DNA of 48,325 nucleotides from Gammaproteobacteria bacterium (GTDB lineage Bacteria > Pseudomonadota > Gammaproteobacteria > Pseudomonadales > Azotimanducaceae): positions 1-48,325 of the forward strand of contig VXPO01000167.1 in assembly GCA_009839505.1 (NCBI GenBank), written 5' to 3'. Positions 24,279 to 45,545 of this stretch are shown here, one piece after another. Below the pieces are notes generated by a model. That model made no database searches. It was not told the origin of the DNA and was given only the letters and a program-made list of their open reading frames with translations. The translations under genes and the position numbers were made by a program. Numbering within the stretch: position 1 is the first letter of the stretch; each line of letters starts with the position of its first letter.

Positions 24279-26825
24279 CTACAACCGCGGGTCCACCGGC
24301 TCGGACTCCATGGCGAGCACGGCGAAGACGCACTCGTGTACGCGGCGCAGCGGTTCCCGCTCCACGAATCGGTGCAGGGCTTCGAGGCCGAGGGCGAATT
24401 CCCGTCGTGCCAGGGACCGCTTGGCGCCGAGGCTTCGCTGCCGCAAGCGAGCAAGGTTCTCCTCGGCAGTGTATTCGGGACCGTAGATGATCCGCAGATA
24501 CTCCCGCCCCCGGCATTTGATCGCCGGCTGGACGAGACCCTTGCCGCTGCGCACAACGAAGTCCCAGGGCTTGACCACCATGCCCTCGCCGCCGGCCGCG
24601 GTCAGCGCCTCCCACCAGGCAATGGCCTCGCTGCAACTGGCGTCGTCGTCGAGTTCCACCAGCCGATAGTCCGTCACGGTCAGGAGTCCGTCGCCCTGGC
24701 ACAGTTCGGCCAGGCGCTCCATATGCCAACCGTGATCCTTGTCGTCGTGCACGGCGGTTTCGGTCGCCAGCAGGTGAAACGGCGCGAGCTTGAGATCGTC
24801 CACGGTGTCCACCGGCCAGTTGTAGCGGCCGACCGCTTCCTCGTAGCCCTTCACCATCTCGGCCTTGCCCCGGAAACGATTCACCAACTCCGCCGTGTCG
24901 GCACCGCGCTCGACGGCGCGTTCGAGCGCATCCACGACCTGTGCCAGGCCGAGGCCGGCGGCATCGGCAACGCTTGCGTATTGCTCGCGGACCAGGTCCG
25001 CGGCCTTCACCGACCACGGCATCAGTTCGCAATCGAGGATCAGCCAGGGCGTATCGAGCTTATCCCAGAGACCGCAGCGGTCCGCCGCCGCTCGAAGCCG
25101 GTCCAGCACCAACTGCTCGAAGCCGGCAAGTTGCCCGCCGAAGAACCGCCGACCGGTCCGCGTATAGATGATGCCAGCGGTCGCGCCCGCCGCGCCGAAG
25201 CGAGTCCGGGCGACATCCGCGTCGCGGCAAACCACCGCGATCGCCCGGGAGCCCATGTGCTTCTCCTGGCAGACGACCCGGTCCACGCCGTTGGTACGGT
25301 AGTAGCCGAACGCCGACGCCGGATGCTCCAACAGATCGCCGGAATTCCTCGTCGCGCACGGCGACATCGTCGGCGGCAGATAGATGAGCCAGTTGGGCTG
25401 AACCGCGAACCGACTCATCACTTCAAGCGCCGCCGCCGCGTTTTCCTCTCTGACGGTGATGTTGGGAACAAGCCGCGTATCGACGATGCGTTTGCCGAGT
25501 ACATCGTCGATCGCGAGGATGTCTCCGGCCGCGTCGGCGGTGTCGGCATCGGGCACCAATGGTCGACCGGTCGACGGGTAGTAGACCTTCGCTGCCGGCA
25601 CGGAAACCAGTTCCCGTTCCGGATAGCGCAACGCGGTCAGCTTGCCGCCGAACACGCATCCAGTGTCGATGCAGATGGTCCCGTTCACCCACTCCGCCTC
25701 GACGACCGGCGTGTGGCCGTAGACGATCATCGCCTCGCCGCGGTACTCGCTCGCCCAGTCGTAGCGTACCGGGAAGCCGTACTCGTCGGTCTCGCCTGTC
25801 GTTTCGCCGAAGAGCGCGAACTCCCGTACCGCGCCCGACGACCGGTTGAGGAGTTCATTCTTCATGCCCGCGTGCGCCACCGCGAGTTTGCCGTCGTCGA
25901 AGAGGTAGTGGCTGACCAGACCGTCGATGAACTCCGCGACGCGGTCGCGGAACGCCGACGGTTCCGACTCCAGTTGCGCGACGGTTCCGTCGAGACCGTG
26001 GGTCAGCCTCACGCGCCGTCCGCGCAGGTGGCGAAGCAGCTTGGTCTCGTGGTTTCCGGGAACGCACAACGCCACCCCGTCATCGACGGCGTCCATCACC
26101 AGCCGCAGGCAATCCGCGACCCTCGGGCCCCGGTCCACCAGATCACCGAGGAATACGAGCCTTCGTGCTTCGGGATGCGAGATTGCAAAGCTCTCGCCTT
26201 CCCTGTCGACGCGGTAGCCGAGTTCGGTGAGCAGGGCTTCCAGCTCGTCGCCGCAGCCGTGCACATCGCCGATGATGTCGAACGGACCGCCGTCCTCGCG
26301 TCGGTCCGTCCACAGGCGTTGACGTTCCACGACCGCGGCGTCGGCCTCCGCTTCGGAACGGAACTGAAACCGATAGCGGAAGCCCTCGCGGCCGAGTCGC
26401 CTCACCGACCGACGCAGCAAACGGACATGGTTGTGTACCACCCGTGGGCCAAAGTCGCGGTCTTCTCGTCGGTCGTTGCGCTCCTGGCAGACGCGCTCTG
26501 GCAGATCGAACACGATGGCCACGGCGAAGGCGTGGAACTCCCGGGCGAGGCGAACTAGCTTGGCGCGGTCCTCGGGACGGACGCTGGTCGCGTCCACGAC
26601 AGTGAGTCGACGGGCGGCAAGTCGCTTGCGAGCGATGAACTCGAGCAGCTCGAAGGCATCCCGGGTAGCCGATTGGTCGTTGGCATCATCGCTGACCAGC
26701 GCCCGGCAGGTGTCGGACGAGATCACCTCCGTGGGGGCGAAGTGCTTGGCCGCGAAAGTCGACTTGCCGGAACCGGATGCGCCGATCAGGACCACGAGGC
26801 AGTATTCAGGAATCTCTATGCGCAT
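24279..26825 (-). CDS. pnkp: Bacterial RNA repair enzyme Pnkp (kinase-phosphatase-ligase)
   Basis: This 848-residue protein carries the three Pnkp activities that heal and seal broken RNA. The 5'-kinase domain (about 1-170) has the P-loop GASGSGKST. The phosphatase domain (from about 180) has GDVHGC, GDLVDRGP, GNHE, HAGM and YGHTPV of metallophosphoesterases. The ligase domain (about 475-848) has the adenylation motif with Lys522 in VCQEKHMGSRA, then EGMVVKPWDF and QPAIKCRGREYLRIIYG. All active-site motifs appear intact. It starts 10 bases inside hen1, so the two are coupled; Pnkp and Hen1 work as a heterotetramer. Known targets are tRNAs cut by ribotoxins. A decayed antitoxin-like frame follows it. 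Confidence 0.95.
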   Translation of the reverse strand: MRIEIPEYCLVVLIGASGSGKSTFAAKHFAPTEVISSDTCRALVSDDANDQSATRDAFELLEFIARKRLAARRLTVVDATSVRPEDRAKLVRLAREFHAFAVAIVFDLPERVCQERNDRREDRDFGPRVVHNHVRLLRRSVRRLGREGFRYRFQFRSEAEADAAVVERQRLWTDRREDGGPFDIIGDVHGCGDELEALLTELGYRVDREGESFAISHPEARRLVFLGDLVDRGPRVADCLRLVMDAVDDGVALCVPGNHETKLLRHLRGRRVRLTHGLDGTVAQLESEPSAFRDRVAEFIDGLVSHYLFDDGKLAVAHAGMKNELLNRSSGAVREFALFGETTGETDEYGFPVRYDWASEYRGEAMIVYGHTPVVEAEWVNGTICIDTGCVFGGKLTALRYPERELVSVPAAKVYYPSTGRPLVPDADTADAAGDILAIDDVLGKRIVDTRLVPNITVREENAAAALEVMSRFAVQPNWLIYLPPTMSPCATRNSGDLLEHPASAFGYYRTNGVDRVVCQEKHMGSRAIAVVCRDADVARTRFGAAGATAGIIYTRTGRRFFGGQLAGFEQLVLDRLRAAADRCGLWDKLDTPWLILDCELMPWSVKAADLVREQYASVADAAGLGLAQVVDALERAVERGADTAELVNRFRGKAEMVKGYEEAVGRYNWPVDTVDDLKLAPFHLLATETAVHDDKDHGWHMERLAELCQGDGLLTVTDYRLVELDDDASCSEAIAWWEALTAAGGEGMVVKPWDFVVRSGKGLVQPAIKCRGREYLRIIYGPEYTAEENLARLRQRSLGAKRSLARREFALGLEALHRFVEREPLRRVHECVFAVLAMESEPVDPRL

Positions 26826-28165
26826 TGGCTGAACCGCCCCATCTGGGTCGGTGCCCCGAGCACCTCGTCAACCTCGCCCACCGGTTCGAACGCTACCGAG
26901 TAGCCATGGGCTGACGCCACCGCATCGGCCCAGGCCGCGAACTCCGCCCGTGTCCATTCGAACCGGTGGTCGCTATGCCGCAAGCCACCAGCGGGGATGC
27001 CTGGATACCTGACGTTGTACTCCCGGTTCGGCGTCGTGACGACCACCGTTTCCGGCTTGGCGAACTCGAACAGCAGCCGTTCGAATGTCCTGAGGCGTTC
27101 CGGGTCGAGATGCTCCAGCGCTTCCACCACCGCCACCGCATCGAAGCCCTGCATGCGCCGGTCGCGATAGGTCATCGTCCCCTGCAGCAGCTTGACCCGC
27201 CGCCGCTGCCGTTGTTGCATGCGATCCAACCGAAGACGGCGGCTGGCCGTCTCCAGCGCCCGGACGGAGGCGTCCACAGCAAGGATCTCCTGGAACTGCG
27301 GGTCTCGGAGCAATTGCTCGACCAACCGCCCCTCCCCGCATCCCAAGTCGATGACGCGCGCGGCGTTGCTTTCCTTCAAGGCGCGGGTGACCGCCGCCAG
27401 ACGGGCATCCGCCAGTGTCACGAACGCCTCCGCGCCGGGTCCGTGGTCGCCATCCGGGGAAACCGCGTCCTCGTCGTCCGCCAAACGCGCCAACGCGTCG
27501 CTCGCCAAGTTGTCCCGATGCTTGAGGTAACGACGCACGATGAGATCCCGGCGCGGATGACCCTCCAGCCAGCCTTCCCCCCGGGCGATGAGTTTGTCCA
27601 CCTCGGCATCGCCCACCCAGTAGTGTTTGCGGCCGTCCAGCACCGGGATCAGCACATAGAGATGGGTCAGCAGCTCGGCCAACGGCTTGCGGCCAGTCAG
27701 CGTGACGTTCCGGTAGTTGCCGCTCGCGTCGTCGCCAGGTTCAAGGTCCACTTCATAGCCCAGCGGTTCGAAGAGTTCCCGCACGTCATCCCCGCTCCTG
27801 CAAGGCAGCGCAGCGATCCCCGCAACGAGCGGCAACGGCTCGCCGACAAGCTCTGGCCTGTCCCGGCAGCGCCCGCCCAAGGCGCTGCTGAACACGCGCG
27901 CAATGGCGACGCTCAAGAAGGACGATGCGACGTACGGCCGGTCGTTGACGTAGTCGGTCGACATCGAGCCACGCCCCCGCACGAGGGCGACGGGATCGAC
28001 ATCGAGCAGCAGTGCCACCGTGCAGCGCGCTTCCGACGCCTGGGGATAGAACACATGCGCCTTGCCGAACGACAACTCGAAGACCTGGACCCGCGCGGGA
28101 TTCTTGTGCAGGAGGTAGCCCAGATCGGTGGCCGGGCTATGCGTAGTCGAGATCGTGAGCAGCAC
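26816..28165 (-). CDS. hen1: Hen1 3'-terminal RNA ribose 2'-O-methyltransferase
   Basis: Bacterial Hen1 methylates the 2'-OH at the 3' end of cut RNA before sealing, which protects the repaired site from renewed cleavage. The N-terminal domain (about 1-245), which activates the Pnkp ligase, begins LLTISTTHSPATDLGYLLHKNP, a strong signature. The methyltransferase domain has VIDLGCGEGRLVEQLL near 270, the metal motif EALEHLDPERL near 347, and PNREYNVRYPG followed by GGLRHSDHRFEW. I chose the GTG at 28163-28165; another GTG three codons upstream (28174) is equally possible and would give 452 residues. The gene overlaps pnkp by 10 bases. It is divergent from the FAD monooxygenase. Confidence 0.95.
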   Translation of the reverse strand: MLLTISTTHSPATDLGYLLHKNPARVQVFELSFGKAHVFYPQASEARCTVALLLDVDPVALVRGRGSMSTDYVNDRPYVASSFLSVAIARVFSSALGGRCRDRPELVGEPLPLVAGIAALPCRSGDDVRELFEPLGYEVDLEPGDDASGNYRNVTLTGRKPLAELLTHLYVLIPVLDGRKHYWVGDAEVDKLIARGEGWLEGHPRRDLIVRRYLKHRDNLASDALARLADDEDAVSPDGDHGPGAEAFVTLADARLAAVTRALKESNAARVIDLGCGEGRLVEQLLRDPQFQEILAVDASVRALETASRRLRLDRMQQRQRRRVKLLQGTMTYRDRRMQGFDAVAVVEALEHLDPERLRTFERLLFEFAKPETVVVTTPNREYNVRYPGIPAGGLRHSDHRFEWTRAEFAAWADAVASAHGYSVAFEPVGEVDEVLGAPTQMGRFSQCA

Positions 28166-28260
28166 GAGCAGCACTCGGACGGGCTGTTAAGCTGCACATG
28201 ATGCAGCCCGGACAGCGTTCCGTCGAACCCATCGTGCTCGCACCGAGGAGGGATGAGCCG

Positions 28261-29454
28261 ATGCGCCCCCTAAAAACCCTGGTTGCCGGCGGCGGGATCG
28301 GGGGACTCGCCGCAGCCTTGTGTCTCGCCAAACGAGGCCACGAGGTCACCGTATTCGAACAGGCCCGGGAGTTCGGCGAGGTCGGCGCCGGCATTCAACT
28401 GTCGCCCAACTGCACCCGCGTACTGCACGATCTCGGACTGGAAGGACCGCTTCGCGCCACGGCTTTCGAGCCCCAGGCAATCCAGTTCAGGAACTGGCGA
28501 ACCGGCCGCGTCATCGGCCAGTCGGCCTTGGGCGAGGAGGCCGTACGACGCTTCGGGTTTCCCTACTACCACATGCACCGCGCCGACCTGTTGCGCGTAC
28601 TGGTGAATGCGGCGTTCGCGAGTCCGCACATCACCCTCCTCCGCGACGCCGCCGTGCGGCGCTTCGACCCACGCGATACGCAGGTGGGATTGACAGCGGT
28701 CACGGGTGACTACGATGGAGACCTGCTCGTCGGTGCCGATGGCATCCACTCGGTGGTTCGCGCCGGACTCTGGGGTGATGACCGCCCACGTTTCACCGGC
28801 TGTGTCGCGTGGCGAGCCCTGGTTCCCGTCGAGCGCCTTCCTCCCGGCCTGATTCGACCGATGGCGACGGCCTGGTGGGGCCCCGGAGGACACTTCGTCC
28901 ACTACTTCGTCCGACACGGCGAACTCGTCAACTGCGTCGGCGTGATCGAAAAGTCGGGCTGGGAAGTCGAGTCCTGGACGGAACGCGGCGACCATGCCGA
29001 GTTCGCCGCGGATTTCGTCGGCTGGCACGACGAAATCCGAAGGCTGATCGACAACGTGGACAGCCACTCCCTGTTCAAATGGGCGCTGCATGATCGCGAG
29101 CCGATGCCCCGGTGGGGCAAGGGACGGGTCACCCTGCTGGGCGACGCCTGCCACCCGACGCTGCCGTTTATGGCCCAGGGCGCGGCGATGGCCATCGAGG
29201 ATGCCGCGGTCCTGGCGGGATGCGTGGCGGGCGACCAAGACTTGCCAGCCGCACTGCAACGCTACGAACGCCTGCGCCGAGACCGGACGGCGCGGGTCCA
29301 GCACGGATCCCGGCGCAACGCCACGCTGTTCCACCTCGCCGGGTTCAAGGCGTGGCTGCGCAACCGGGCGACCGGTCGCGTGGCGGGGCGAACCACGGAT
29401 GATCTGTACCGATACAACGCCCTCGAAGCGGTTCGGTCAAAAACGCACGAATAG
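28261..29454 (+). CDS. FAD-dependent aromatic monooxygenase (salicylate hydroxylase-like)
   Basis: This class A flavin monooxygenase has 397 residues. The Rossmann FAD motif is GGGIGGLAAALCLAKRG. The DG motif is VGADGIHSVVR, and the GD motif GDACHPTLPFMAQGAAMAIEDA ends the FAD domain. These three together mark PHBH-type hydroxylases; closest in style are salicylate and 6-hydroxynicotinate hydroxylases, which use NAD(P)H and oxygen on an aromatic ring. I prefer the ATG at 28261 because GAGGAGGG lies upstream at normal distance; the frame is open 21 codons further. It is a single gene with no ring-cleavage partner nearby. The substrate is unknown. Confidence 0.88.
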   Translation: MRPLKTLVAGGGIGGLAAALCLAKRGHEVTVFEQAREFGEVGAGIQLSPNCTRVLHDLGLEGPLRATAFEPQAIQFRNWRTGRVIGQSALGEEAVRRFGFPYYHMHRADLLRVLVNAAFASPHITLLRDAAVRRFDPRDTQVGLTAVTGDYDGDLLVGADGIHSVVRAGLWGDDRPRFTGCVAWRALVPVERLPPGLIRPMATAWWGPGGHFVHYFVRHGELVNCVGVIEKSGWEVESWTERGDHAEFAADFVGWHDEIRRLIDNVDSHSLFKWALHDREPMPRWGKGRVTLLGDACHPTLPFMAQGAAMAIEDAAVLAGCVAGDQDLPAALQRYERLRRDRTARVQHGSRRNATLFHLAGFKAWLRNRATGRVAGRTTDDLYRYNALEAVRSKTHE

Positions 29455-29545
29455 CGTTCCCCTTGGCGTTTTCGGGCGCCGCAATCACGTCGTCTTTGGT
29501 ATCGTGGACGGCAATCGGCGGGTAGGAAAGTCAAGGACGATCGGC

Positions 29546-32500
29546 GTGGCTGAAGCAACGGAAGTTCTGAACGCCCCGTCCGCCGCCGACCCCTACGCCG
29601 CCCTCTCACCCGGTGCCCGCCTCGTCGCGCAAGCCTATGGCGTCGTCGCGCCGCACGGAATCAGTGTGAACCGCACGGCTCGGATCCTGGTGCAGGCGAA
29701 CATAGACCTGCTCGGCCGCAGCTTGACCCAGGCGGACGTTCGGCGGGCGAATGTCGAACTAATCGATGCCGGGATCGGCACTCGACCGCCGTCCCCGAAC
29801 GTTGGAGTCGCCGCAACACCAAACTGGGCCGTGTCGTTGGCCGTCAGGGCGCAACACGAAGGCCGACTCAGCAAGATCCTGGAGGCCTTTCGAGCCACCC
29901 GGCCAAGACCCGGTGTCGACCGCTACCTGTTCGAGACCATGTTCCGCTGCTACGTGATACGCGGCGACTTCCGCAATCTCGACGCGCTGCTGGACGAAGA
30001 CGAAGGGTCCGTGGACCAGTGGCGCTTTCTGGCGGATCCGCTTGCGGTTGACGTGCTTGCCACCTTGCCAGAGCGCTACATCGACCTCGCCCTGGCGGGT
30101 TGCCTGCGTCACACGCTCGATCTCGCAGCCCCACCGGAACCTGCAATCGAGGCTTGCCGACGTTTGGCTTTGCACTCGGAATGGCATGCTGCCGACATCG
30201 CCTACATCCGCATCCTCCAAGGGCGGTTCGACGCGGCCGAAGCCGTGTTTTCGGAGCTTCCCGCCGAGGCCCGCGATGCAAGACCCGCTACCACCGCACT
30301 CGCGTCGACGCGTGCCATGATCGCCATGCTCCGAGGCAACAATCCCGCCGCTCGTCAACACATCGAAGCGGCCATCGCCGCCGAGAAGGCGGGCACCCGA
30401 AAACGCAACGTGTTCCCCGAGCAAGCGGCGTTCGCGCTCTCGCTGATCGCGCTCGTCCGCTTGGACACGCCCGAATCCCGCGACTTGATGCAGCACCTGC
30501 TGCGCACCGCCGAACGCCGCTATCTCAACCGCGACTTCGAGGTCGCCTTGGCAATGGATGCCGCCCGTCTCCAACGGAATCTCGGCATCCATGCCCGCCG
30601 AACGGCAATTCCGTGCTACCTCACCTTTCTGAACGGCTTCAGGCACTGCTGGCTTGGTTCGGACAACCAAGTGAGCGCCGACTGGCTTGAGTCCATGGAC
30701 GCCTATCACCGTCGAGCCAACGCCAACGGTTACCGGTGGATCGCCGCGGAAGGCGCGTCGATCCTGCACCGGTTGGTCGAGCTGCGCGGCGCGGATTCGT
30801 CCGGACTACCCGATCCACAGCCGGTGCTCGACAAGCTTGGCATCCAGACCCTGGCCGTGCTGGAGCCGCCCATCCTCGCGTGGGAACGCTCGCTCAAGGC
30901 ACTGGAGCAACTGGCCTACGACGCCAAGAACCAGAGCCGCGATAACAAGGCGACGTCGGACGCTGTGGAGAAGCGCCTCGTCTGGGATGTCGATCGCTTC
31001 TACGACAGCGTCAACGTCACTGCCCGCGAGCAGCGCCGAAACAAGAACGGCACCTGGAGCAAGGGACGCCGGGTCGCCCTCAAACGCTTGGCCGAGGAGG
31101 CTGCGTCCATGGCCCACCTCCGCGAAGAGGATCTGGCAGCCGCCGCCGCGGTCACGATCCGCCGTTCCTGGGGACGCGTCGACTATGAACTCGGTATGCG
31201 CGGCCTCTATGCACTGGCCGGCCATCCCCACGTCTTCAATGCATCGGGCGAACCCATCGACGTGGTCCGACGCGAACCGAAACTACACATCGAAGAAAGT
31301 GCCGATGGCGTCGTCGTCGTTGGCATCGATCCGCACGGTTGGAATGCCGACGACGAATACGGCGTCACGCTGGCCTCCGACAACCGTATCGAGGTAACGC
31401 GTTTCACCGACGACCACCGGCGTCTGTTCGACGTCATTCCACCGGAGGGGCTGGCGTTCCCCGCGGATGGCAAGTCGCGGCTCCTGGAGGCGGTAGCGGC
31501 GCTCGTCTCGCAAGTTCGCGTACAAAGCGATGCGGGCCCGGTGGCGGGCGCCGCGGAAGTGCAGGCGGATCCCGAGCCCTGGGTCCGCCTCGAACCCTTC
31601 GAGGCCGGGCTCGCGGTCGCAATCCTGGTCGAGCCCATTGCCAATTCGGGCATCTGTTTCGAATCGGGCCAGGGTGGCGCGACGGTGTTCGCAAACCGCG
31701 ACGGCGAGCATGTCCAGGCGCGGCGCGACCTTTCGCAGGAACGCAACGCGCTCGCCCGACTCGTCGACCGCTGTCCCAGGTTGGCAACGCGACCAACCGA
31801 ATACGCCCCCCTCGTGCTTCCCCAAGCTCTCGAATGCCTAGAGTTGCTGGAGCAGCTCGACGCTGCCGAAGCTCGTTGCAAGTGGCCGAAGGGGGAGCCG
31901 TTCAAGATCGTCGCGCGTCATTCCACGCGGTCGCTGTCGCTCACCGTCAAGCCCGCCGAGCAGTGGCTGCAGACCTCCGGCAAGCTGGTCGTGGACAGTT
32001 CCCGGGTGCTCGACCTAAAACGCCTCTTCGCGCTCCTTGAAGCCAACCCTCAATCGCGCTTCCTTGAACTCGAGAGTGGCGAGTTCGTCGCGCTCACCGC
32101 GGCGTTCCGCCGCCAACTCGACGATCTTGCGAGCCTCTCGACGCCAGCCGCGAAGGGCGCGGTGCGCCTGCATTCCCTCGCCGCGTCCTCCCTCGACGAC
32201 CTGTTCGAGGAAGCCGAGGTCGCCGGTGACGATGACTGGCAGCAGATGCGCGCGGATTTGGACGCCTCTCGATCGTTCGAACCCGAACTGCCGAGCACCC
32301 TGCAAGCCGAATTGCGACCGTACCAAGTCGAAGGCTACCGCTGGCTTGCGCGATTGAGCCGTTGGGGCGCCGGCGCGTGCCTTGCCGACGACATGGGGCT
32401 CGGCAAGACGGTGCAGACGCTGTCCGTGCTCCTGGACCGGGCGCCTGGAGGACCGGCGCTGGTCGTCGCTCCCACCTCGGTCGTCGCCAACTGGGTCGAC

Positions 32501-33733
32501 GAGGCGCGCCGGTTCGCGCCGACCTTGAAGGTCAAGGTCTACACGGGTGCGACCGCGGCCCGTGCCCCACTGCTGGACGATCCCGCCGCATTCGATCTCT
32601 ACCTGACGACCTATGGCCTACTGCAGAACGATGTCGAGGCACTCGCCGGGATCGGTTGGCGCAGCGTCGTTCTGGACGAGGCCCAGGCAATCAAGAACCC
32701 GCTCACGAAGCGCGCGCGGGCAGCACGGGAGCTGAGCGCCGGGTTCCGCGTCGTCACCACCGGCACACCCATCCAGAACAATCTGATGGACCTGCACTCC
32801 CTGTTCAGCTTCCTGAATCCCGGTCTGCTCGGCTCCCGGGAGAGATTCCGCACGACTTTCGGCGAACCGGTGGAGCGCGACGGCGACGAGGAGGCCCGCG
32901 GTCGGCTGCGCCGGATCATCTCGCCGTTCGTGCTCCGTCGGCTCAAGACCGAGGTGCTCGACGACCTGCCCGAGCGCACCGAGATCACGCTCCACGTGAC
33001 GTTGTCCCCCGAAGAATCCGCCCTGTACGAAGTCCTTCGACAGCGTGCCGTCGAGCAACTCGAGGCAGCGCAGGAGGGAAATCCGGACGGCAGCGAGGGG
33101 GAACGCTTCCAACTCTTCGCGCACCTCACCCGGCTCCGACTCGCTTGCTGCAACCCGAAACTGGTGGCCGACTCACCGGGCAAAGCGCCGAAGAGTTCGA
33201 AGCTCGAGACATTCGCCGAAACCCTTGGGGAACTCCTTGAAAACCGCCACAAGGTCCTGGTGTTCTCCCAGTTCGTCATGCATCTCAAGTTGGTCGAGGA
33301 GTACCTCGTCGAGCAGGAAATCGCCTACCAGTACCTCGACGGCAGCACGCCCGCCAAGGCCCGTAGCGAGCGCATCGCCGCCTTTCAAGCCGGGCAAGGG
33401 GACGTGTTCCTGATTTCTTTGAAGGCCGGCGGCACCGGCCTCAACCTCACCGCCGCCGACTACGTCATCCACATGGATCCGTGGTGGAATCCTGCCGTCG
33501 AGGATCAGGCGTCGGACCGCGCACACCGCATCGGACAGACCCGGCCGGTGACCACCTACCGGCTGGTCACGGAGGGCACCATCGAAGAGCAGATCGTGGA
33601 CATCCACCACCACAAGCGCGACTTGGCCGACCGTCTTCTCGAAGGCACCGATACCTCCGGGAGGCTAAGCACCGAAGAACTCCTGGAACTGCTGCAGCGA
33701 CCGCTGGAACGCGACACAAGCCGAAGCCTGTAG
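29546..33733 (+). CDS. SNF2-family ATPase with long unknown N-terminal region
   Basis: This 1395-residue protein is a SNF2/Rad54-type DNA translocase. The ATPase core starts near residue 920: Walker A ADDMGLGKT at about 947, VVAPTSVVANW, motif II as DEAQ at about 1043, and VTTGTPIQNN. The second lobe has VLVFSQFVMHLKLVEEYL, GTGLNLTAADYVIHMDPWWNP and DRAHRIGQTRPV. The first 900 residues have no recognisable catalytic motif; helical pairs between about 80 and 330 look TPR-like. The start is GTG at 29546 with AAGGA eight bases upstream. Related proteins act on DNA-bound proteins, and some belong to phage-defence loci, but no defence partner is adjacent here. The gene stands alone on its strand. 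Confidence 0.92.
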   Translation: MAEATEVLNAPSAADPYAALSPGARLVAQAYGVVAPHGISVNRTARILVQANIDLLGRSLTQADVRRANVELIDAGIGTRPPSPNVGVAATPNWAVSLAVRAQHEGRLSKILEAFRATRPRPGVDRYLFETMFRCYVIRGDFRNLDALLDEDEGSVDQWRFLADPLAVDVLATLPERYIDLALAGCLRHTLDLAAPPEPAIEACRRLALHSEWHAADIAYIRILQGRFDAAEAVFSELPAEARDARPATTALASTRAMIAMLRGNNPAARQHIEAAIAAEKAGTRKRNVFPEQAAFALSLIALVRLDTPESRDLMQHLLRTAERRYLNRDFEVALAMDAARLQRNLGIHARRTAIPCYLTFLNGFRHCWLGSDNQVSADWLESMDAYHRRANANGYRWIAAEGASILHRLVELRGADSSGLPDPQPVLDKLGIQTLAVLEPPILAWERSLKALEQLAYDAKNQSRDNKATSDAVEKRLVWDVDRFYDSVNVTAREQRRNKNGTWSKGRRVALKRLAEEAASMAHLREEDLAAAAAVTIRRSWGRVDYELGMRGLYALAGHPHVFNASGEPIDVVRREPKLHIEESADGVVVVGIDPHGWNADDEYGVTLASDNRIEVTRFTDDHRRLFDVIPPEGLAFPADGKSRLLEAVAALVSQVRVQSDAGPVAGAAEVQADPEPWVRLEPFEAGLAVAILVEPIANSGICFESGQGGATVFANRDGEHVQARRDLSQERNALARLVDRCPRLATRPTEYAPLVLPQALECLELLEQLDAAEARCKWPKGEPFKIVARHSTRSLSLTVKPAEQWLQTSGKLVVDSSRVLDLKRLFALLEANPQSRFLELESGEFVALTAAFRRQLDDLASLSTPAAKGAVRLHSLAASSLDDLFEEAEVAGDDDWQQMRADLDASRSFEPELPSTLQAELRPYQVEGYRWLARLSRWGAGACLADDMGLGKTVQTLSVLLDRAPGGPALVVAPTSVVANWVDEARRFAPTLKVKVYTGATAARAPLLDDPAAFDLYLTTYGLLQNDVEALAGIGWRSVVLDEAQAIKNPLTKRARAARELSAGFRVVTTGTPIQNNLMDLHSLFSFLNPGLLGSRERFRTTFGEPVERDGDEEARGRLRRIISPFVLRRLKTEVLDDLPERTEITLHVTLSPEESALYEVLRQRAVEQLEAAQEGNPDGSEGERFQLFAHLTRLRLACCNPKLVADSPGKAPKSSKLETFAETLGELLENRHKVLVFSQFVMHLKLVEEYLVEQEIAYQYLDGSTPAKARSERIAAFQAGQGDVFLISLKAGGTGLNLTAADYVIHMDPWWNPAVEDQASDRAHRIGQTRPVTTYRLVTEGTIEEQIVDIHHHKRDLADRLLEGTDTSGRLSTEELLELLQRPLERDTSRSL

Positions 33734-38747: not shown

Positions 38748-38782
38748 GATTCGCCAAGCGCGCTCCCTTGCGACGGCAATTC

Positions 38783-40516
38783 TTGAAAACACTAAACAAA
38801 GACATTCGGAACGAGCCCGAAGAACCCTGTTCCCCGCAAGCCACGCTGAGCGTGACCCTACAGGGTGCCGTGATCGCGGTGATCAACACGGTGGTGATGG
38901 TGACCATCGTGGTACGGGCTTCCGACGAGGGCCATGCGTACCTGTCGTGGGCAATCTGTTCCGCAATGCTCATCGGCGGTGCCGTAACGGCTCTGCAAGC
39001 ATCGCGAATCGGCCGTTTCGGTGCGGGGCACCTTCTCCTTTGCGGTGCCGGACCACACTGGGTCGCCATTTCCGTCGTCGCCATCAATGTTGGAGGATGG
39101 ACGACGCTCGCCAGTCTCATCGTCGTCTCTTCCCTGGCTCAGTTTGCGTTTGCCGCCTGGCTACCGGTCTTGAGGCGGATCATCACGCCCGTGGTTTGCG
39201 GCACCTCGCTCATGCTGATCGCCATTTCAGTGATCGCGGTTGCGGTCGACAGGTTGGCGCAGGTGCCCGACGGCACGCCCTTGGTCGCGGGTCCACTCGT
39301 TGTGGCGGCGACTCTGGGCGCCGCTGTGGTGATCTCTCTGAAAGGCACCGGGATTCTGCGGTTGTGGGCGCCACTCATCGGCATCCTGTCCGGCTGCGCT
39401 GTTGCGGCCATGTTCGATCTCTACGACCTCGATAGCTTGAGGCGCGCGCCTTGGTTCCAAACGCCGGATTTCGGTGCGTGGCCCGGAATCGACCTGACGC
39501 CTGGAACGGAGTTCTGGACCCTTCTGCCGACCTTCATCCTCGTGACGCTTGTCGTTGCCGTGAAGACCGGTGGCGATGGCGTCGTGATTCAGCAGGTGTC
39601 GCTGCGTAGATCGCGAGCCATCGACTTCCGGGTGGTGCAGGGCACTGTGAACGCGAGTGGTTTGGGAGGACTCCTGTCGGGTTTGGCTGGGACGCCACCC
39701 ACCGTCGTGTATTCGCCATCGAGCATCGCCCTGATCAACCTGACCGGCATTGCGTTTCGAGGCATCGGCTACTGGATCGGTGCCGCAATGATCCTGCTCG
39801 CGTTCCTTCCGAAGATAGCGGCGCTGCTGCTGGCGGCTCCGAGCGCAGTTGTGGCCTCGCTGCTGCTGATGGTGATGGGAATGTTGCTCGTCGAGGGCAT
39901 GCGCATGCTCTTTCGGGAAGGACTCGATCAACGCAACTCGCTGATTGTCGCGATGACCCTTGCGGTGGGGCTGGGCGTGGAGAGTCTGAACGTCTTTGGC
40001 GTGCGTTCGGACAACCTCTGGGCCTCAATCCTCGGAAACGGCACGACCGTTGGGATTCTGGTGATGATCGCGCTGACGACGCTCCTCGAATTGACCAGCC
40101 CACGCAGCAAGAAGCTAGACGTCGAGCTAAGGACCTCGTCGCTACCTAGAATCGACGAATTCCTCTCGAACTTCGCCGCCGAAATCGGATGGTCGGAGGA
40201 GTCGGTCAATCGGCTGCGGGCGTCCGGCGAGGAATCGTTGCTGTGCCTGCTGTCTTCGGGGACCGAGGACGACGAGGCCGGTACCCGACTCATCGTCGTG
40301 GTCCGCTCACAGGACGATAGTGTCGAAATGGACTTCCTGTCTGTCTTCGAAGATCAGAACATCGAAGACAGACTCGCATACATGAGCGAGGAAGCGGAAG
40401 TTCACGATGACCGCGAACTGTCTTTCCGGCTCTTGCGGCACCACGCATCGTCGGTTCACCACAGGAAGTACCACGGCGTGGATGTTGTTACCGTACGAGT
40501 CGAACAGACTGGGTGA
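38783..40516 (+). CDS. NCS2 (xanthine/uracil-type) permease with C-terminal GHKL-like domain
   Basis: The first 435 or so residues form a membrane protein of the xanthine/uracil permease (NCS2) family with about twelve helices; the conserved half-helix region reads NASGLGGLLSGLAGTPPTV, where the family has its substrate-binding loop. The last 140 residues (from about LDVELRTSSLPRIDEF) are soluble and resemble a degenerate GHKL/anti-sigma-type domain, with RLRASGEESLLCLL in place of the N-box and no clear G-box. Such a tail suggests regulation of transport. No ATG lies near the expected start; TTG at 38783 is used here (577 residues), and TTG at 38768 is as likely. It probably shares a transcript with the upstream fusion gene. 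Confidence 0.8.
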   Translation: MKTLNKDIRNEPEEPCSPQATLSVTLQGAVIAVINTVVMVTIVVRASDEGHAYLSWAICSAMLIGGAVTALQASRIGRFGAGHLLLCGAGPHWVAISVVAINVGGWTTLASLIVVSSLAQFAFAAWLPVLRRIITPVVCGTSLMLIAISVIAVAVDRLAQVPDGTPLVAGPLVVAATLGAAVVISLKGTGILRLWAPLIGILSGCAVAAMFDLYDLDSLRRAPWFQTPDFGAWPGIDLTPGTEFWTLLPTFILVTLVVAVKTGGDGVVIQQVSLRRSRAIDFRVVQGTVNASGLGGLLSGLAGTPPTVVYSPSSIALINLTGIAFRGIGYWIGAAMILLAFLPKIAALLLAAPSAVVASLLLMVMGMLLVEGMRMLFREGLDQRNSLIVAMTLAVGLGVESLNVFGVRSDNLWASILGNGTTVGILVMIALTTLLELTSPRSKKLDVELRTSSLPRIDEFLSNFAAEIGWSEESVNRLRASGEESLLCLLSSGTEDDEAGTRLIVVVRSQDDSVEMDFLSVFEDQNIEDRLAYMSEEAEVHDDRELSFRLLRHHASSVHHRKYHGVDVVTVRVEQTG

Positions 40517-40580: not shown

Positions 40581-40868
40581 TCACACGCCCTCGACGACTA
40601 TCACGTTGGCGTTCGCCGACCGTTCCCGGATCTTCTTAAGGTCGTTGTACTCGGGTGAGTTGAGCCACGCCCGCGCCGCGCCCGCATCGTCGAACTCCAC
40701 GACCACCAGTCGATCCGCGGACCAACTACCTTCGACCACCTCGACGCTGCCTCCACGCACCAAGTATCGACCGCCGTGGGCATCGACGGTTGCGCCGATC
40801 CGTTCCCGGAATTCGGAGAAACCGCCTTCATCCAACACTTCATCGTTAACGATCACGTATGCCGCCAT
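40581..40868 (-). CDS. DUF1330 family protein
   Basis: This 95-residue protein of the DUF1330 family has a dimeric alpha/beta-barrel (ferredoxin-like) fold. Typical features are AAYVIVNDEVLDEGGFSEF, then GGRYLVRGG, the strand RLVVVEFDD and the ending WLNSPEYNDLKKIRERSANAN. Members are small cytoplasmic proteins of unknown function, related in fold to antibiotic-biosynthesis monooxygenases and muconolactone-isomerase-like proteins. A very strong ribosome-binding site, AGGAGGA, precedes the ATG, so it is probably well expressed. It has no operon partner; the upstream gene on the same strand ends 102 bases away, and that gap holds no further gene. Confidence 0.88.
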   Translation of the reverse strand: MAAYVIVNDEVLDEGGFSEFRERIGATVDAHGGRYLVRGGSVEVVEGSWSADRLVVVEFDDAGAARAWLNSPEYNDLKKIRERSANANVIVVEGV

Positions 40869-40970: not shown

Positions 40971-41987
40971 TCAGACTATGGATGCCAGTCGCATTCCGGA
41001 GTTGCTGGCACGGGTGCATACGACTCGTCCCTGGATGGCTTCTCGACTACTCAGTTCCCTTCGCAGGTTCGCAGTTACCTCCTCATCCGAGAACTCCGTC
41101 GTGTCGAAGAAACCGAAGAGGGTTGCCCCCGTCGACGAGAGCCCGCAGCCCTGGATTCCGTCAGTCGCGTCAAACGCCGATCTCACGGGTCGGAGCGGTT
41201 CGGTATCGGGCCGAATCCAGTGTCGCCTCTTCCAGCCCACGTCCTGAAGAGCGCTCACACTAGTGCCGAAGGTCTCGAGATCGAGTTCCCGCAGGGCAGG
41301 CAAAAGGAGCATCAGAATGATGTGGCACGTCGACTGGACCTCATCGAGCGGGATCGGCGTGTTGGCAAGCATGAAGTCAAGCTCGTCCTGACCTGACAGG
41401 CCTCGGTGACGGCTCGGCATGAAGAGCACTACGCCCCAGGTCGTTGGGAAGTCCGCGCGTAGGAGGAGCGGCGGTTGACCTGCTTCGGTCGCGAAAGCCG
41501 ACGGCGCGAACGCCTTCTTCTGCCTACCTGCCGAGTGGCCTCCATCGAGGAGAAGCCCTCCAGACCGAAAAGCACGCGTTCCTATTCCCGATGTACCCCC
41601 GCGGGTGGAGATGGCGCCCAGCTCTGATGGCGAGTGGTTCAATCCAAATCGTTGATTCAACGCACTGAGCACCGCGAGCCTGACCTGCGTCCCGGACCCC
41701 AACCCCTGGTGCGGAGGGATCATCTGGCGAATTTTGATTTCAATGTCCGGTTCCACCTGGAGGATCGCGCTACCCTTGGCGAGCTCGGCTAGAACCAACT
41801 CCTGCTCTTTCGGAACGCCTCCTCGAACCACGGTTCCATTGTGTGGACCGAAGTCGAAGGACACGCCCGGATATTGGATGGAAAGGCCGAGACTGCCGTC
41901 CACGCGGCCAATCTCGCCATTCATGTCGATCAGTGTGAAGTGCAGTCGTGAGGGCGTGCTAATTCGATGAGTCAAGGTCGAGCACAT
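40971..41987 (-). CDS. Beta-RFAP synthase-like protein of the GHMP superfamily
   Basis: This 338-residue protein resembles beta-ribofuranosylaminobenzene 5'-phosphate synthase, the enzyme that joins PRPP and 4-aminobenzoate with loss of CO2 in methanopterin synthesis. Matching features are RISTPSRLHFTLIDMNG at the N-terminus, GRVDGSLGLSI, the GHMP motif PPHQGLGSGTQ near residue 95, GGTSGIGT, and GGLLLDGGHS. The start ATG overlaps the TrpB2-like gene by 29 bases and has AAGG upstream, so the two are translationally linked. No other methanopterin gene is present. The enzyme may use another aromatic acid or produce a different C-riboside. The sequence is less GC-rich than the surroundings. Confidence 0.8.
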   Translation of the reverse strand: MCSTLTHRISTPSRLHFTLIDMNGEIGRVDGSLGLSIQYPGVSFDFGPHNGTVVRGGVPKEQELVLAELAKGSAILQVEPDIEIKIRQMIPPHQGLGSGTQVRLAVLSALNQRFGLNHSPSELGAISTRGGTSGIGTRAFRSGGLLLDGGHSAGRQKKAFAPSAFATEAGQPPLLLRADFPTTWGVVLFMPSRHRGLSGQDELDFMLANTPIPLDEVQSTCHIILMLLLPALRELDLETFGTSVSALQDVGWKRRHWIRPDTEPLRPVRSAFDATDGIQGCGLSSTGATLFGFFDTTEFSDEEVTANLRRELSSREAIQGRVVCTRASNSGMRLASIV

Positions 41988-43287
41988 CTGAGAAGCCTTT
42001 CAGATCCAGGTACCCGTGACCCGACAAACAGAACACGATGACCTGCTTCTCCCCGGTTTTCTTGGCCTCCCTCGCCGCATCGATGGCACCTAGGACGGCA
42101 TGAGCGCTTTCTGGCGCGGCCAGTACACCTTCGGTCTTCAGGAATAGGCGCCCCGCGTCAAAGACCTCCCGTTGTCCATAGGTCCTCGTGCCCACCACAT
42201 CGTTCTTGACGAGCGCCGAGAGCACCGGGGTCTTGCCGTGATAGCGCAATCCACCCGAATGGACTGGGGGCGGTACGAATCGATGGCCAAGCGTGTACAT
42301 CAGGATCCGAGGCGTCAGTTCGGAGAAGTCGGCCCAATCGTATCGGTACTCGCCCCGACTCAGCGTGGGTATCGACTCCGGCTCGATGGCGCGAAATTCG
42401 ATGGGGCTTCCACCGATCTTCTCGCGAACGAACGGTGCGATGAATCCCGTGAAATTGCTGCCTCCACCGACGCAGCCGATCATCAGACTCGGTGAACGGT
42501 CGACCTGTTCAAGCTGTAGCTTCGTCTCCAGGCCGATAATGGATTGATGGAGAACGGCGTAGTAGGACATGCACCCCAAGGCCAGCCGCCGGCCGCGATC
42601 CTCCCGGACGAACTCGATGGCCTCACTCATGCCGATTCCGAGGCTGCCGGAATTTTCGGGATCGTCCTTGAGAATTTCTCGTCCCGTGTTCGTCAGTTCA
42701 CTTGGCGAGGAATACACATCCGCGCCGGACATGCGCATCAGGTAGCGGCGATACGGCTTTTCCTCGAAGCTCTTGCGGATCATGAACACACAGCAGCGCA
42801 GTCCGAGCGTTTCGCACGCCATGGCTAGAGCCGCTCCCCATTGTCCCGCTCCCGTATCGGTCACCATGCTGTGGATCCGGGAGTTGTCTTCGCGGGCGGC
42901 GTAGTACGCCTGAACCAATGCCGTGTTGAACTTGTGGCTCCCGGCGGGATTCAGATCCTCACGTTTGTAGTAGATCTCGGCCGGGGTCTCCAAGTACTTC
43001 TCGAGGGAGCGGGCTCTCACCAAGGGTGACGGTCGGTAGCGACGGTAGACGTCTGATATGAACTCCGGAATCTCGATCCATGCATCGGTTCCGTACTCGT
43101 CCTGCTGCAGCTCGATTCGAAGACACTCGCGGGGCCATAGCCAGTCGTAGTCGTCGATTTCGACGGGGCGATCCTCGATCGGGTGCAGCGGCGTCGGCAC
43201 ATCGAACGGCAGTTCGGCCACGATGTTGTACCAATTCCGGGGAAGCTGCGACTCCGGCAGGAAAATCTTGTTCTCGCTCGTTGTCAC
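41959..43287 (-). CDS. TrpB2-like PLP enzyme with altered catalytic residue
   Basis: This 442-residue enzyme belongs to the TrpB2 branch of tryptophan synthase beta subunits. The PLP lysine is Lys119 in GSHKFN, the cofactor phosphate loop is GGGSNFTGF, and the end CLSGHGYLDLKGF fits TrpB2. The catalytic Glu of TrpB, normally in the motif ETGAGQ, is Asp here (residue 144 in TDTGAGQWG). Because that residue controls how the nucleophile is activated, the enzyme may not make tryptophan. No trpA or other trp gene is nearby. It starts at GTG 43287, and its 3' end overlaps a beta-RFAP-synthase-like gene by 29 bases. A shared pathway is likely but unknown. Confidence 0.85.
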   Translation of the reverse strand: MTTSENKIFLPESQLPRNWYNIVAELPFDVPTPLHPIEDRPVEIDDYDWLWPRECLRIELQQDEYGTDAWIEIPEFISDVYRRYRPSPLVRARSLEKYLETPAEIYYKREDLNPAGSHKFNTALVQAYYAAREDNSRIHSMVTDTGAGQWGAALAMACETLGLRCCVFMIRKSFEEKPYRRYLMRMSGADVYSSPSELTNTGREILKDDPENSGSLGIGMSEAIEFVREDRGRRLALGCMSYYAVLHQSIIGLETKLQLEQVDRSPSLMIGCVGGGSNFTGFIAPFVREKIGGSPIEFRAIEPESIPTLSRGEYRYDWADFSELTPRILMYTLGHRFVPPPVHSGGLRYHGKTPVLSALVKNDVVGTRTYGQREVFDAGRLFLKTEGVLAAPESAHAVLGAIDAAREAKKTGEKQVIVFCLSGHGYLDLKGFSDVLDLDSSN

Positions 43288-43428: not shown

Positions 43429-44601
43429 TCAGATCTCGCGGAACTCGCGACCCTTGCGACGCAACACGGCGAGGCGACTCATGAAGTCGTCCCGGCAGAC
43501 ATAGCAGCCTTGGAGCATGCGATGACCGCTCGCCGGGTCGTAGCTCGACCGAGCGTGCAGGATCCGGCGATTGTCGAAGACTTGGCATTCGCCAGCCTCC
43601 AGCCGGAATCGATACTGCATCTCGGTGCTCGACGCGATGGCAAGCAGCTCCCGGTGCGCACGGTAGAAATCCATCTGGACATCGGGTTCGACATCCACGG
43701 GTCCGAGCAGCGCGGGGTGAAGACGCGTGCCGACGATGTCGCCGTCTTCGTCGACGTCGATGATCGTCGCACGGTTGACGATGTGCCAATCGGGCGAACG
43801 CGATGCAAAGGTCACCTGGCAGTTGGCGAGGATTTCGAAGGCGCAATCGTCCGTACGGCGTAGCGCTTCGGCACAGGCGATCGCATCCACCAATACGCTG
43901 TCGCCGCCCGTGACGTCGTTCCGCAGGCAGTGCAGGAACTGGATACCCGGCGGATAGCGACGACTGGCGAGATCGTTGTGCGGCCGCAGAGCGTTGGGTG
44001 TGTACGCCAGGTTCTCGGCGTGCGGCTTCGACTCGACTTGGAAATAGCGACCGAAGTGGGACTCTTCGACGAAGGCGATGCGCTGGGCGAGGGTCAGCAC
44101 CGCGCCTTCGTCCGCCGGAACGCCGGTCGCCAACGCCACACCGGTGTTCTCCACATGCGCGAGGAGTTCCAGCAGTCCCCCGTCGGTCTCCATGACCTTG
44201 GAATAGTCCACGGCGACCGAGGCCTTGCTGAAGTCGTCCCCTTGCCAACTCGTTGGACGCCGCTTGCGCGCGAGGCGTGCCTCGCGTTCCGCCCGGTGGG
44301 CCTCGAGCCACGCCCAGCTGTAGAAGCTTCCCTCGCACGATGCCTCGTGCGCCGGCCACTCGATGTGCAACCCCGCTGCGTCACCCGTCAATGAGCTCGG
44401 CGTGATGTCGATGGGAATGGCCAGGAAGTCGAGAGTCCGTTCCCACGCATCGGGATGAGTACACGCTGAACAGTGGCAGTTTTCGCGCAACCAGTAGTAG
44501 AGAAAACGGCTCTCGTGCCCTTCCGGCCAGACGACGCGAACGCTGTCATCGTCTGCCTCGAGCCGGGGCGCGCCGGCGGATTCCTGGACCGGTTCAGCCA
44601 T
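43429..44601 (-). CDS. Gamma-butyrobetaine hydroxylase-like 2-oxoglutarate dioxygenase
   Basis: This 390-residue Fe(II)/2-oxoglutarate oxygenase is of the gamma-butyrobetaine/trimethyllysine hydroxylase type. The small N-terminal zinc-binding domain typical of this group is present as WLRENCHCSACTHPD, followed by the TauD-like catalytic domain from about residue 110. Likely iron ligands are His and Asp in LRPHNDLA and a late His; the 2-oxoglutarate Arg is probably in the region around NRRILHARSSY, which also carries a His. Family members hydroxylate gamma-butyrobetaine in carnitine synthesis or breakdown. It lies 31 bases after an SDR on the same strand, suggesting a two-gene operon. Other trimethylated substrates are possible. 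Confidence 0.85.
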   Translation of the reverse strand: MAEPVQESAGAPRLEADDDSVRVVWPEGHESRFLYYWLRENCHCSACTHPDAWERTLDFLAIPIDITPSSLTGDAAGLHIEWPAHEASCEGSFYSWAWLEAHRAEREARLARKRRPTSWQGDDFSKASVAVDYSKVMETDGGLLELLAHVENTGVALATGVPADEGAVLTLAQRIAFVEESHFGRYFQVESKPHAENLAYTPNALRPHNDLASRRYPPGIQFLHCLRNDVTGGDSVLVDAIACAEALRRTDDCAFEILANCQVTFASRSPDWHIVNRATIIDVDEDGDIVGTRLHPALLGPVDVEPDVQMDFYRAHRELLAIASSTEMQYRFRLEAGECQVFDNRRILHARSSYDPASGHRMLQGCYVCRDDFMSRLAVLRRKGREFREI

Positions 44602-44632: not shown

Positions 44633-45409
44633 TCAAGCGTTTTTGATTGTCAGTCCACCGTCCACTGGCAACGCCACGCCGGTGATGAACGTCGAGGCCG
44701 GCAGCACCAGGCTCAACGTTGCGTGGGCGACTTCCTCCGGGTCCGCGTAGCGCTTGAGCGCGACGCGCCGACGAGCGTATTCGCGCTTATCGTCCTCGGG
44801 AATCGACTCGGTCATGCCCGTGCGAATCGGTCCCGGACAGACGCAGTTGACGGTGATGTTCTCGGTGCCGAGCTCCACCGCCAACGACCGCGTGAGGCCG
44901 ATGACACCCGTCTTCGCCGCCGTGTACGGGCTCGCATACTTCGTCGCTCCGAGTCCCTCGGTGGAGGCGATGTTGACGATTCGCCCGCCCGCCGACTGGC
45001 GCAGGTAAGGCAGCGCCGCGCGGATGATGCGGACATGGGCCGTGATCAGCACGTCGAATGCCCGCCGCCACTTCTCCTCGTAGTCGTCGCCGTCGACGGG
45101 ACCACCTGCCCCAACTCCGGCGTTGTTGACTAGGATGTCGATGCCGCCAAAGTGAGCGGCCACGTCGGGAACGACGCGGTTGATCGCCTCCAGGTCGGCG
45201 ACGTCCAGGTCCCAACCGTTGATGGGATAGCCAGCTCCCGCGATCTCGTCGACCACCGACTGCAGGGGATCGGCGTTGATGTCGAGTGCCGCCACCTTGG
45301 CGCCCTCGTCCGCGAAAAGCGCGGCGGTGGCTCGACCCATCCCGCTAGCGGCCCCTGTGACGATGGCGACCTTGCCCTCGATGGATCGGCTCAGCTTGCT
45401 CAGTCTCAT
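44633..45409 (-). CDS. Short-chain dehydrogenase/reductase (operon with dioxygenase)
   Basis: This classical SDR has 258 residues. TGAASGMGRATAALF binds the cofactor, and an Asp at the end of the second strand (ALDINAD) points to NAD rather than NADP. NNAG is present, Ser is in VNIASTEG, and YTAAKTG supplies Tyr and Lys. The end is FITGVALPVDGGLTI. It is the upstream gene of a pair with the gamma-butyrobetaine-hydroxylase-like gene, so it may oxidise an alcohol in the same carnitine-like route, although the specific substrate is not visible. The start ATG at 45407-45409 has no strong ribosome-binding site. Downstream of tRNA-Lys on the same strand by 60 bases. Confidence 0.85.
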   Translation of the reverse strand: MRLSKLSRSIEGKVAIVTGAASGMGRATAALFADEGAKVAALDINADPLQSVVDEIAGAGYPINGWDLDVADLEAINRVVPDVAAHFGGIDILVNNAGVGAGGPVDGDDYEEKWRRAFDVLITAHVRIIRAALPYLRQSAGGRIVNIASTEGLGATKYASPYTAAKTGVIGLTRSLAVELGTENITVNCVCPGPIRTGMTESIPEDDKREYARRRVALKRYADPEEVAHATLSLVLPASTFITGVALPVDGGLTIKNA

Positions 45410-45469: not shown

Positions 45470-45545
45470 TGGTGGGCCGTCTGGGGCTCGAACCCAGGAC
45501 CAACGGGTTAAAAGCCCGGTGCTCTACCGACTGAGCTAACGACCC
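45470..45545 (-). tRNA. tRNA-Lys (anticodon UUU)
   Basis: A complete 76-base tRNA with encoded CCA folds on the minus strand. The acceptor arm GGGTCGT pairs with ACGGCCC (one T-G pair). The D arm contains AGCTCAGTCGGTAGAGC. The anticodon loop CTTTTAA gives UUU, and the T arm reads GGTTCGAGCCC. The stem beside the loop has a C-T mismatch at its outermost pair (27-43). It reads AAA and AAG codons. The order pal-cpoB-queE-queC-tRNA-Lys is known from Pseudomonas-like genomes. Lys tRNA(UUU) receives 2-thiouridine modification rather than queuosine, so the link with que genes is positional only. Confidence 0.97.

Follow-up and report, generated by a model that had tools for sequence, protein, structure and literature searches.

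An overlapping gene pair encoding a ForT-type synthase and an altered TrpB2-family enzyme, a candidate core of a C-nucleoside pathway

In the formycin pathway, the C-nucleotide synthase ForT is accompanied by enzymes that make the pyrazole; TrpB2, for its part, uses O-phosphoserine. Few enzymes are known that form carbon–carbon bonds between ribose and base, and ForT has pyrazofurin counterparts in PrfT and PyfQ (the scarcity of such enzymes and PyfQ are taken from PMC8183095). Here we describe two overlapping genes in a 48,325-nucleotide stretch of a gammaproteobacterial genome (family Azotimanducaceae; assembly GCA_009839505.1, contig VXPO01000167.1, positions 1 to 48,325, forward strand), the whole of which we call the window. 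The first gene encodes TRP, a TrpB2-family enzyme dependent on pyridoxal phosphate (PLP), and the second encodes RF, a protein of the GHMP fold. From sequence comparison, TRP and RF probably form the enzymatic core of a C-nucleoside (C-nucleotide) pathway that has not been described, for which we infer activity, substrates, step order and product below.

41959–43287, minus strand: TRP, TrpB2-family PLP enzyme of 442 amino acids, GTG start, assigned by NCBIfam models and motifs
40971–41987, minus strand: RF, predicted ForT-type C-nucleotide synthase (GHMP fold) of 338 amino acids, ATG start, assigned by residues and Foldseek
41959–41987, minus strand: overlap of the TRP 3' end with the RF 5' end, 29 bases, from open reading frame (ORF) positions

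The two proteins and their families

An initial annotation of this DNA had likened RF to beta-RFAP synthase, a resemblance that we revise to the ForT type. RF, which has no second homologue in the window genome (G000; 4.70 Mb in 181 contigs), scores 234 bits against the TIGR00144 subfamily model (cut-off 113.5) and 266 bits against the RFAP-synthase equivalog NF040726, below its cut-off of 328. Its best PDB matches by phmmer are three ForT entries, and an AlphaFold model of RF (predicted local distance difference test (pLDDT) 92.0, predicted template-modelling (TM) score 0.90) places ForT structures at Foldseek ranks 1–3 (E values 1.7e-29 to 4.1e-27, TM scores 0.80–0.85), at 28–29% sequence identity.

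The roles of ForT residues, including those at the sites for phosphoribosyl pyrophosphate (PRPP) and for the leaving carboxylate, are described in PMC9832568 and PMC8183095. Inspection of these sites shows that RF keeps R14, L19, H93, T100, R129, T132, S133, S163, E202 and K253. Among them, R14, H93, T100, R129 and S133 correspond to R19, H99, T106, R135 and S139 of the ForT PRPP site, whose sixth residue, S142, is replaced by G136, and the ForT residues studied by mutation according to PMC9832568 (L24, T138, S174, E211 and K263) are all retained, as L19, T132, S163, E202 and K253; E211 also counts among the PRPP-site residues. Besides G136, the changes relative to ForT are H16 (S21), H256 (Q266) and S285 (V294). 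In an alignment of 49 rows (that of locus L131 is empty, and one gene appears as both L152 and L167), L24, T138, S174 and K263 of ForT are common to RF and its partner proteins (15 distinct proteins, the window's included), whereas the homologues read from the class, 29 among 41 other matching class genomes (12 unread), carry F, R, a gap, and A or S at these sites. The RF group clusters with ForT with a support of 0.997 in a tree whose set lacks archaeal RFAP synthases. By sequence and predicted structure, RF is thus closer to ForT than to the other RFAP-type homologues of its class, which we presume to be of the methanopterin type, and it may work as ForT does, on another base; we do not propose it as a formycin enzyme.

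These observations bear on whether RF could be an RFAP or RHP synthase of the methanopterin type, and the pair what is left of a methanopterin pathway. The TIGR00144 match above cut-off would agree with it, as would His16 and R28, the latter being the counterpart of both ForT R33 and RFAP-synthase R26. Against these stand the grouping with ForT, the four sites at which RF is unlike every class homologue read, the equivalog score and the lack of any further homologue in the genome; TrpB, moreover, is not known to take part in making methanopterin. We regard the remnant reading as extremely improbable, and rejected a methanopterin-type RFAP synthase as the identity of RF on its residues and its grouping in the tree.

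TRP scores 576 bits against NF009057 (cut-off 366) and 525 bits against TIGR01415 (cut-off 518.85), both NCBIfam models labelled 'TrpB-like', and so belongs to the family. By motif, its PLP lysine is Lys119 (GSHK) and its phosphate loop is GCVGGGSN, residues 271–278. The TDTGAGQWG stretch that had first drawn attention to the protein lies at residues 143–151, and Asp144 indeed occupies the position of the catalytic Glu, so that TRP departs from the (E)TGAGQW motif by which tryptophan-synthase TrpB2 is recognized. On contig 28 of the window genome we found a separate trpF–trpB–trpA run, whose proteins pass their NCBIfam cut-offs (trpF 231.6 over 215, trpB 619 over 392.45, trpA 207 over 102.35) and whose trpB has a normal ETGAGQHG; TRP is hence not the sole tryptophan synthase, and should be unneeded for tryptophan.

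Co-inheritance of the pair and the aspartate of TrpB2-type enzymes

A scan for the exact DTGAGQWG codons alone, with one genome per species across 84,980 species, returned 47 stretches, 43 of them with TrpB2 (L106, L113, L133 and L135 are not TrpB2). RF lies beside TRP in 17 of these 43 Asp-type loci: 12 related metagenome-assembled genomes (MAGs), three Streptomyces, Rhodanobacter sp. C05 and Endobugula sertula, where the RF matches sit at two contig ends. Six of the 12 MAGs are genus genomes already sampled (L105, L128, L130, L140, L145 and L147 are contigs of L093, L095, L094, L091, L090 and L092, and were counted once), and the MAG names (COS, RHO, IRC, SB) suggest sponge samples. The 29-base overlap, which the initial annotation had reported correctly for the window, recurs with the same MCSTLTH start in 11 of 13 rows, or in 10 of the 12 distinct related loci once L094 and L130, which are one contig, are counted together; it measures 17 bases by pattern in the remaining two, L127 and L131, 20 bases in the three Streptomyces and 26 in Rhodanobacter, with starts called mechanically. 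Such an arrangement would be consistent with translational coupling of TRP and RF. Against the 12 related loci, the ratio of nonsynonymous to synonymous polymorphism (pN/pS) is 0.09–0.15 for TRP and 0.21–0.26 for RF, and by this sequence measure neither is a chance ORF and TRP is under purifying selection. Thus, as judged from sequence, the pair is real and conserved across distant bacteria, and since it overlaps outside the genus as well, the objection of non-conservation raised with the first description falls away.

To see how common the aspartate is, 369 genomes of the class were searched together with 58 relatives, and loci fetched from the matches were read. Glu is present in 33 of 33 TrpB2-type loci read outside the genus, from class and family (36 more class matches above 300 bits are unread), and Asp in all seven genus genomes that have the TRP gene. 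Within this sample, and with a separate trpF–trpB–trpA run in the genome, Asp is not a feature of ordinary tryptophan synthases. For a tree, 109 frames were reduced to 77 by alignment and removal of near-duplicates and to 73 (33 Glu, 40 Asp) by keeping out fragments shorter than 330 amino acids (L102, L112, L122, L146). In this midpoint-rooted tree, Asp-types fall at four places, namely an actinobacterial clade, the pair clade beside archaeal and acidobacterial Asp-types, L104 with L136, and L139; the number of origins of Asp, on these sequences, depends on the root.

The TRP proteins of pair-bearing loci form one clade (support 0.88), in which 18 of 18 have Asp. Eighteen positions, D144 included, set this clade apart from the Glu-types, each with one residue in at least 95% of the pair clade and another in at least 90% of Glu-types. 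Because 17 positions beyond D144 also differ, several of them near recognizable motifs (D111 and N113 by the PLP lysine, G219 and M220 in GIGM, C239–Y242 and A244 at GCMSYY), the active site of TRP looks re-made rather than drifted at one residue. We take E105 of the tryptophan synthase TmTrpB to be the catalytic Glu position replaced in TRP. The earlier statement that changes at this Glu alter the accepted nucleophile agrees with PMC12909874, in which an engineered TmTrpB that carries E105G is active on phenol and naphthol.

Could TRP nevertheless be an ordinary beta chain of tryptophan synthase that has drifted, serving indole salvage and lying beside RF by chance? It shares its family with TrpB2, no replacement of Glu is milder than Asp, and Asp-type TrpB2 occurs in other contexts. 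The trpF–trpB–trpA run, the retention of pair and overlap in distant lineages, the change at eighteen positions instead of one and the purifying selection on TRP argue the other way, and we find this explanation improbable.

Two further groups of Asp-type enzymes emerged from the tree. The actinomycetotal clade includes L114, L142 and L129, which have no RF and in which TRP adjoins a protein with a similar initial Y..(Y/F)I(D/N)G.D stretch; this clade possibly marks another TrpB-derived pathway. L103, L109 and L138, the Asp-types most closely related to the pair clade, come from MAGs of Micrarchaeota, Aenigmatarchaeota and Acidobacteria, with no RF in the stretch read.

A proposed pathway and its genomic surroundings

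In the scheme that we favor, RF would form a bond between C1' of PRPP and a ring carbon of an aromatic or heteroaromatic carboxylate, with loss of CO2 and pyrophosphate, as in ForT. TRP would use PLP to turn serine or O-phosphoserine into aminoacrylate, in a beta-replacement of the TrpB2 type, and would add to it a non-indole nucleophile admitted by Asp and the 17 further changes, giving an alanine-type side chain, or else a ring precursor, for the base ribosylated by RF. The overlap would keep the two enzymes together. Either of the two steps may come first; the product, on this comparison of sequences, is likely a C-riboside. Of the small pathway imagined in the initial annotation, the conserved pair and the C-riboside survive and a non-standard amino acid may be made, while the RFAP-synthase identity does not stand.

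Two more genes accompany the pair in the window, and with it make up a module of four:

40581–40868, minus strand: DUF1330 protein, 95 amino acids, found 3' of RF in every one of the 12 related MAG loci
38768–40516, plus strand: NCS2-family nucleobase permease with a C-terminal extension, start inferred (the mechanical ORF begins at 38363)

The permease is convergent to the pair in 10 of the 12 related MAG loci; the exceptions are L127, whose contig ends first, and L131, where the 3.5 kb read does not contain it. Its extension lies past the Pfam permease match. In the lineage of the window, the product would probably be a simple C-nucleoside handled by this permease. Across all comparisons made, the pN/pS of the four genes stays under 0.29, and the module forms a dip in GC content (0.60–0.63 vs 0.63–0.67) whose flanks, including the region upstream of TRP, vary between genomes. 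A contig titled Rhodospirillales (L119) carries the whole module at 78–91% identity to that of the window, through either transfer between classes or mis-binning.

Because this upstream flank varies, and because their counterparts in six genus stretches are missing or distant, we rejected as pathway members a GBBH/TauD-like dioxygenase (43429–44601; no match in those stretches) and a short-chain dehydrogenase/reductase (SDR; 44633–45409; only distant SDRs, at 31–34%). In Endobugula a PurC-like gene, which may encode an amidating enzyme, lies upstream of TRP and is the sole match in that genome; the same search gave nothing in G000 or G426 and a single weak one in G375, and has little bearing on ordinary PurC. 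Elsewhere in the window, a tRNA-Lys(ttt) (45470–45545, minus strand), flanked by the SDR gene and queC/queE, lies some 2 kb away from the low-GC module, and an RNA-repair cassette (24279–28174, minus strand) of Pnkp (kinase-phosphatase-ligase, 848 amino acids) and Hen1 (452 amino acids) lies near a SNF2-family helicase of 1444 amino acids (29399–33733, plus strand).

Outside the symbionts the pair stands in larger clusters. A common run in Streptomyces LBL, S. corynorhini and AW19M42 consists of TRP, RF, a HemN/HemW-like radical S-adenosylmethionine (SAM) enzyme, a PfkB kinase, a protein whose nucleotidyltransferase matches stay below cut-off (its predicted structure is poor, pLDDT 55) and three ATP-binding cassette (ABC) transporter genes. 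NadC closes the run in S. corynorhini and closes the rest of it, on a separate contig, in AW19M42; in LBL it lies 47 kb from RF. In Rhodanobacter C05, TRP and RF are followed by NadD, the radical SAM gene and a haloacid dehalogenase (HAD) phosphatase, with NadC and NadE divergent beside this row and IMPDH and AsnA-like (amide-forming), nucleotidyltransferase-like and MATE-like genes nearby. Rhodanobacter NadC, NadD, NadE and IMPDH all exceed their cut-offs, and the three '-like' labels all fall below theirs. The radical SAM gene is downstream of the pair in all four non-symbiont genomes, and here the product might be elaborated by the enzyme it encodes and be tied to the metabolism of nicotinamide adenine dinucleotide (NAD). 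HemN acts on the propionate side chains of pyrroles, so a HemN-like partner would fit; the HemW scores weaken that fit, in that the Streptomyces proteins (244, 248 and 230) pass the HemW heme-chaperone cut-off of 205.4, which the Rhodanobacter protein (202.8) just misses. One or more additional, less closely related HemW-like matches occur in each of the four genomes, which makes a second function for the cluster enzyme plausible.

Several observations weigh against a two-enzyme C-nucleoside pathway of this kind. The pair is patchy, being present in 7 of the 16 genus genomes sampled, and among 392 sampled genomes from the genus of LBL the one close match is that of LBL itself (two other genomes have distant ones, at 32–33%). 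Both residues for the retained carboxylate of ForT, S21 and Q266, are His in RF (H16 and H256), so the base handled by RF should differ from that of ForT. RF was not seen in the stretch read at 26 of the 43 Asp-type loci (the stretches of L102, L122, L137 and L146 end in or near TRP, and RF could lie beyond, though not for L102, since a match is lacking from its whole genome). Asp alone consequently does not imply the chemistry of the pair, and with its four places in the tree it is not the mark of the pair; it could also leave TRP with its ordinary activity, only slower. Finally, the window genome and its relatives hold matches of only 30–35%, at best, to the cluster radical SAM enzyme, whose role in the pathway is uncertain because the Streptomyces copies pass the HemW cut-off and the symbionts have no close match.

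The Rhodanobacter neighborhood also admits a more specific reading, in which TRP and RF supply the base–ribose half of a C-nucleoside that mimics nicotinate or nicotinamide mononucleotide. NadD would adenylylate it and NadE amidate it to give an NAD analogue, with the second IMPDH as a resistant target.

Rhodanobacter C05, locus L158, 1252–14096: candidate NAD-mimic cluster, with second IMPDH, NadE, NadC and NadD near the predicted C-nucleotide synthase gene

Each of the cluster's NadD, NadC, IMPDH and NadE, all over cut-off as noted, is a second copy in its genome (the housekeeping NadE match was read through one TGA, which tells against its count), and the AsnA-like and MATE matches beside the pair would suit such a product, both below cut-off. 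The three Streptomyces each have two NadC, and that one of them is in excess is judged from its position. A precedent is offered by benzamide riboside and selenazofurin, which are converted via NMNAT according to PMC6770829, and it is by analogy with the tiazofurin and benzamide riboside of this source that the neighbors suggest a pyridine-nucleotide mimic. Conversely, NadD, NadE and IMPDH adjoin the pair in only one of the four non-symbiont clusters, NadD, IMPDH and NadC are each represented by a single match over cut-off in the window genome and in G375, and the grouping of the Rhodanobacter and Streptomyces cluster NadCs as orthologues has a support of 0.16. NadC makes an N-riboside, and may accordingly be a protected target or unrelated. 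We hold this NAD antimetabolite as a tentative and rather doubtful extension of the C-nucleoside pathway.

Bolder, and in our estimate unlikely, is the proposal that TRP–RF founds a natural family of C-nucleotide antimetabolites imitating pyridine nucleotides. Here RF would form a hydrolysis-proof, C-linked analogue of nicotinate mononucleotide, TRP and the radical SAM enzyme would build and trim its side chain, and NadD and NadE of Rhodanobacter would carry it to a C-linked NAD analogue, with the second IMPDH for self-protection; the sponge and bryozoan symbionts would hold the minimal form. Such a family, if real, would be nature's version of tiazofurin.

Comparison with known systems

RF most resembles ForT (PDB 6yqq, 8aoz, 8ap0), with a like fold (TM 0.80–0.85) and with Arg19, His99, Thr106, Arg135 and Ser139 as well as Thr138, Ser174, Glu211, Lys263 and Leu24 in common. 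The two differ by their identity of 28–29%, by Ser21 and Gln266 (His in RF) and by their partners, RF being paired with a TrpB2-type enzyme. The beta-RFAP and RHP synthases (NF040726, TIGR00144) belong to the same superfamily and, according to PMC8183095, perform PRPP chemistry with an aromatic carboxylate; RF falls below their equivalog cut-off, and the presumed members in the class have other residues at the aromatic-acid site. TRP is homologous over nearly its full length to TrpB2 (TIGR01415, NF009057; PDB 6hul, 4qys, 6hte), with the PLP lysine, phosphate loop and SGHG motifs in common, and is distinguished by Asp at the catalytic Glu, the 17 other group-specific positions and a non-trp context. 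Tiazofurin and benzamide riboside are C-nucleosides that become NAD analogues inhibiting IMPDH, as PMC6770829 states, and may be compared with the NadD and IMPDH near the Rhodanobacter RF; they are synthetic drugs, and no link between such compounds and the window genome emerged.

In the literature searched, which left most subscription journals outside, we found no description of a TrpB–RFAP gene pair and no natural tiazofurin-type pathway. ForT-type C-nucleoside synthesis and TrpB2 are already known; their pairing, not seen in that literature, appears to be new. The pair would mark a lineage in which ForT-type synthases have another base pocket and work beside a PLP enzyme, spread over distant bacteria that include probable sponge and bryozoan symbionts, and it predicts a new class of C-nucleosides. 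Its NAD-gene neighbors bring a possible natural NAD-mimicking antibiotic within direct test in Rhodanobacter and Streptomyces isolates, and the Asp-type TrpB2 enzymes are natural variants of interest for the chemistry of noncanonical amino acids.

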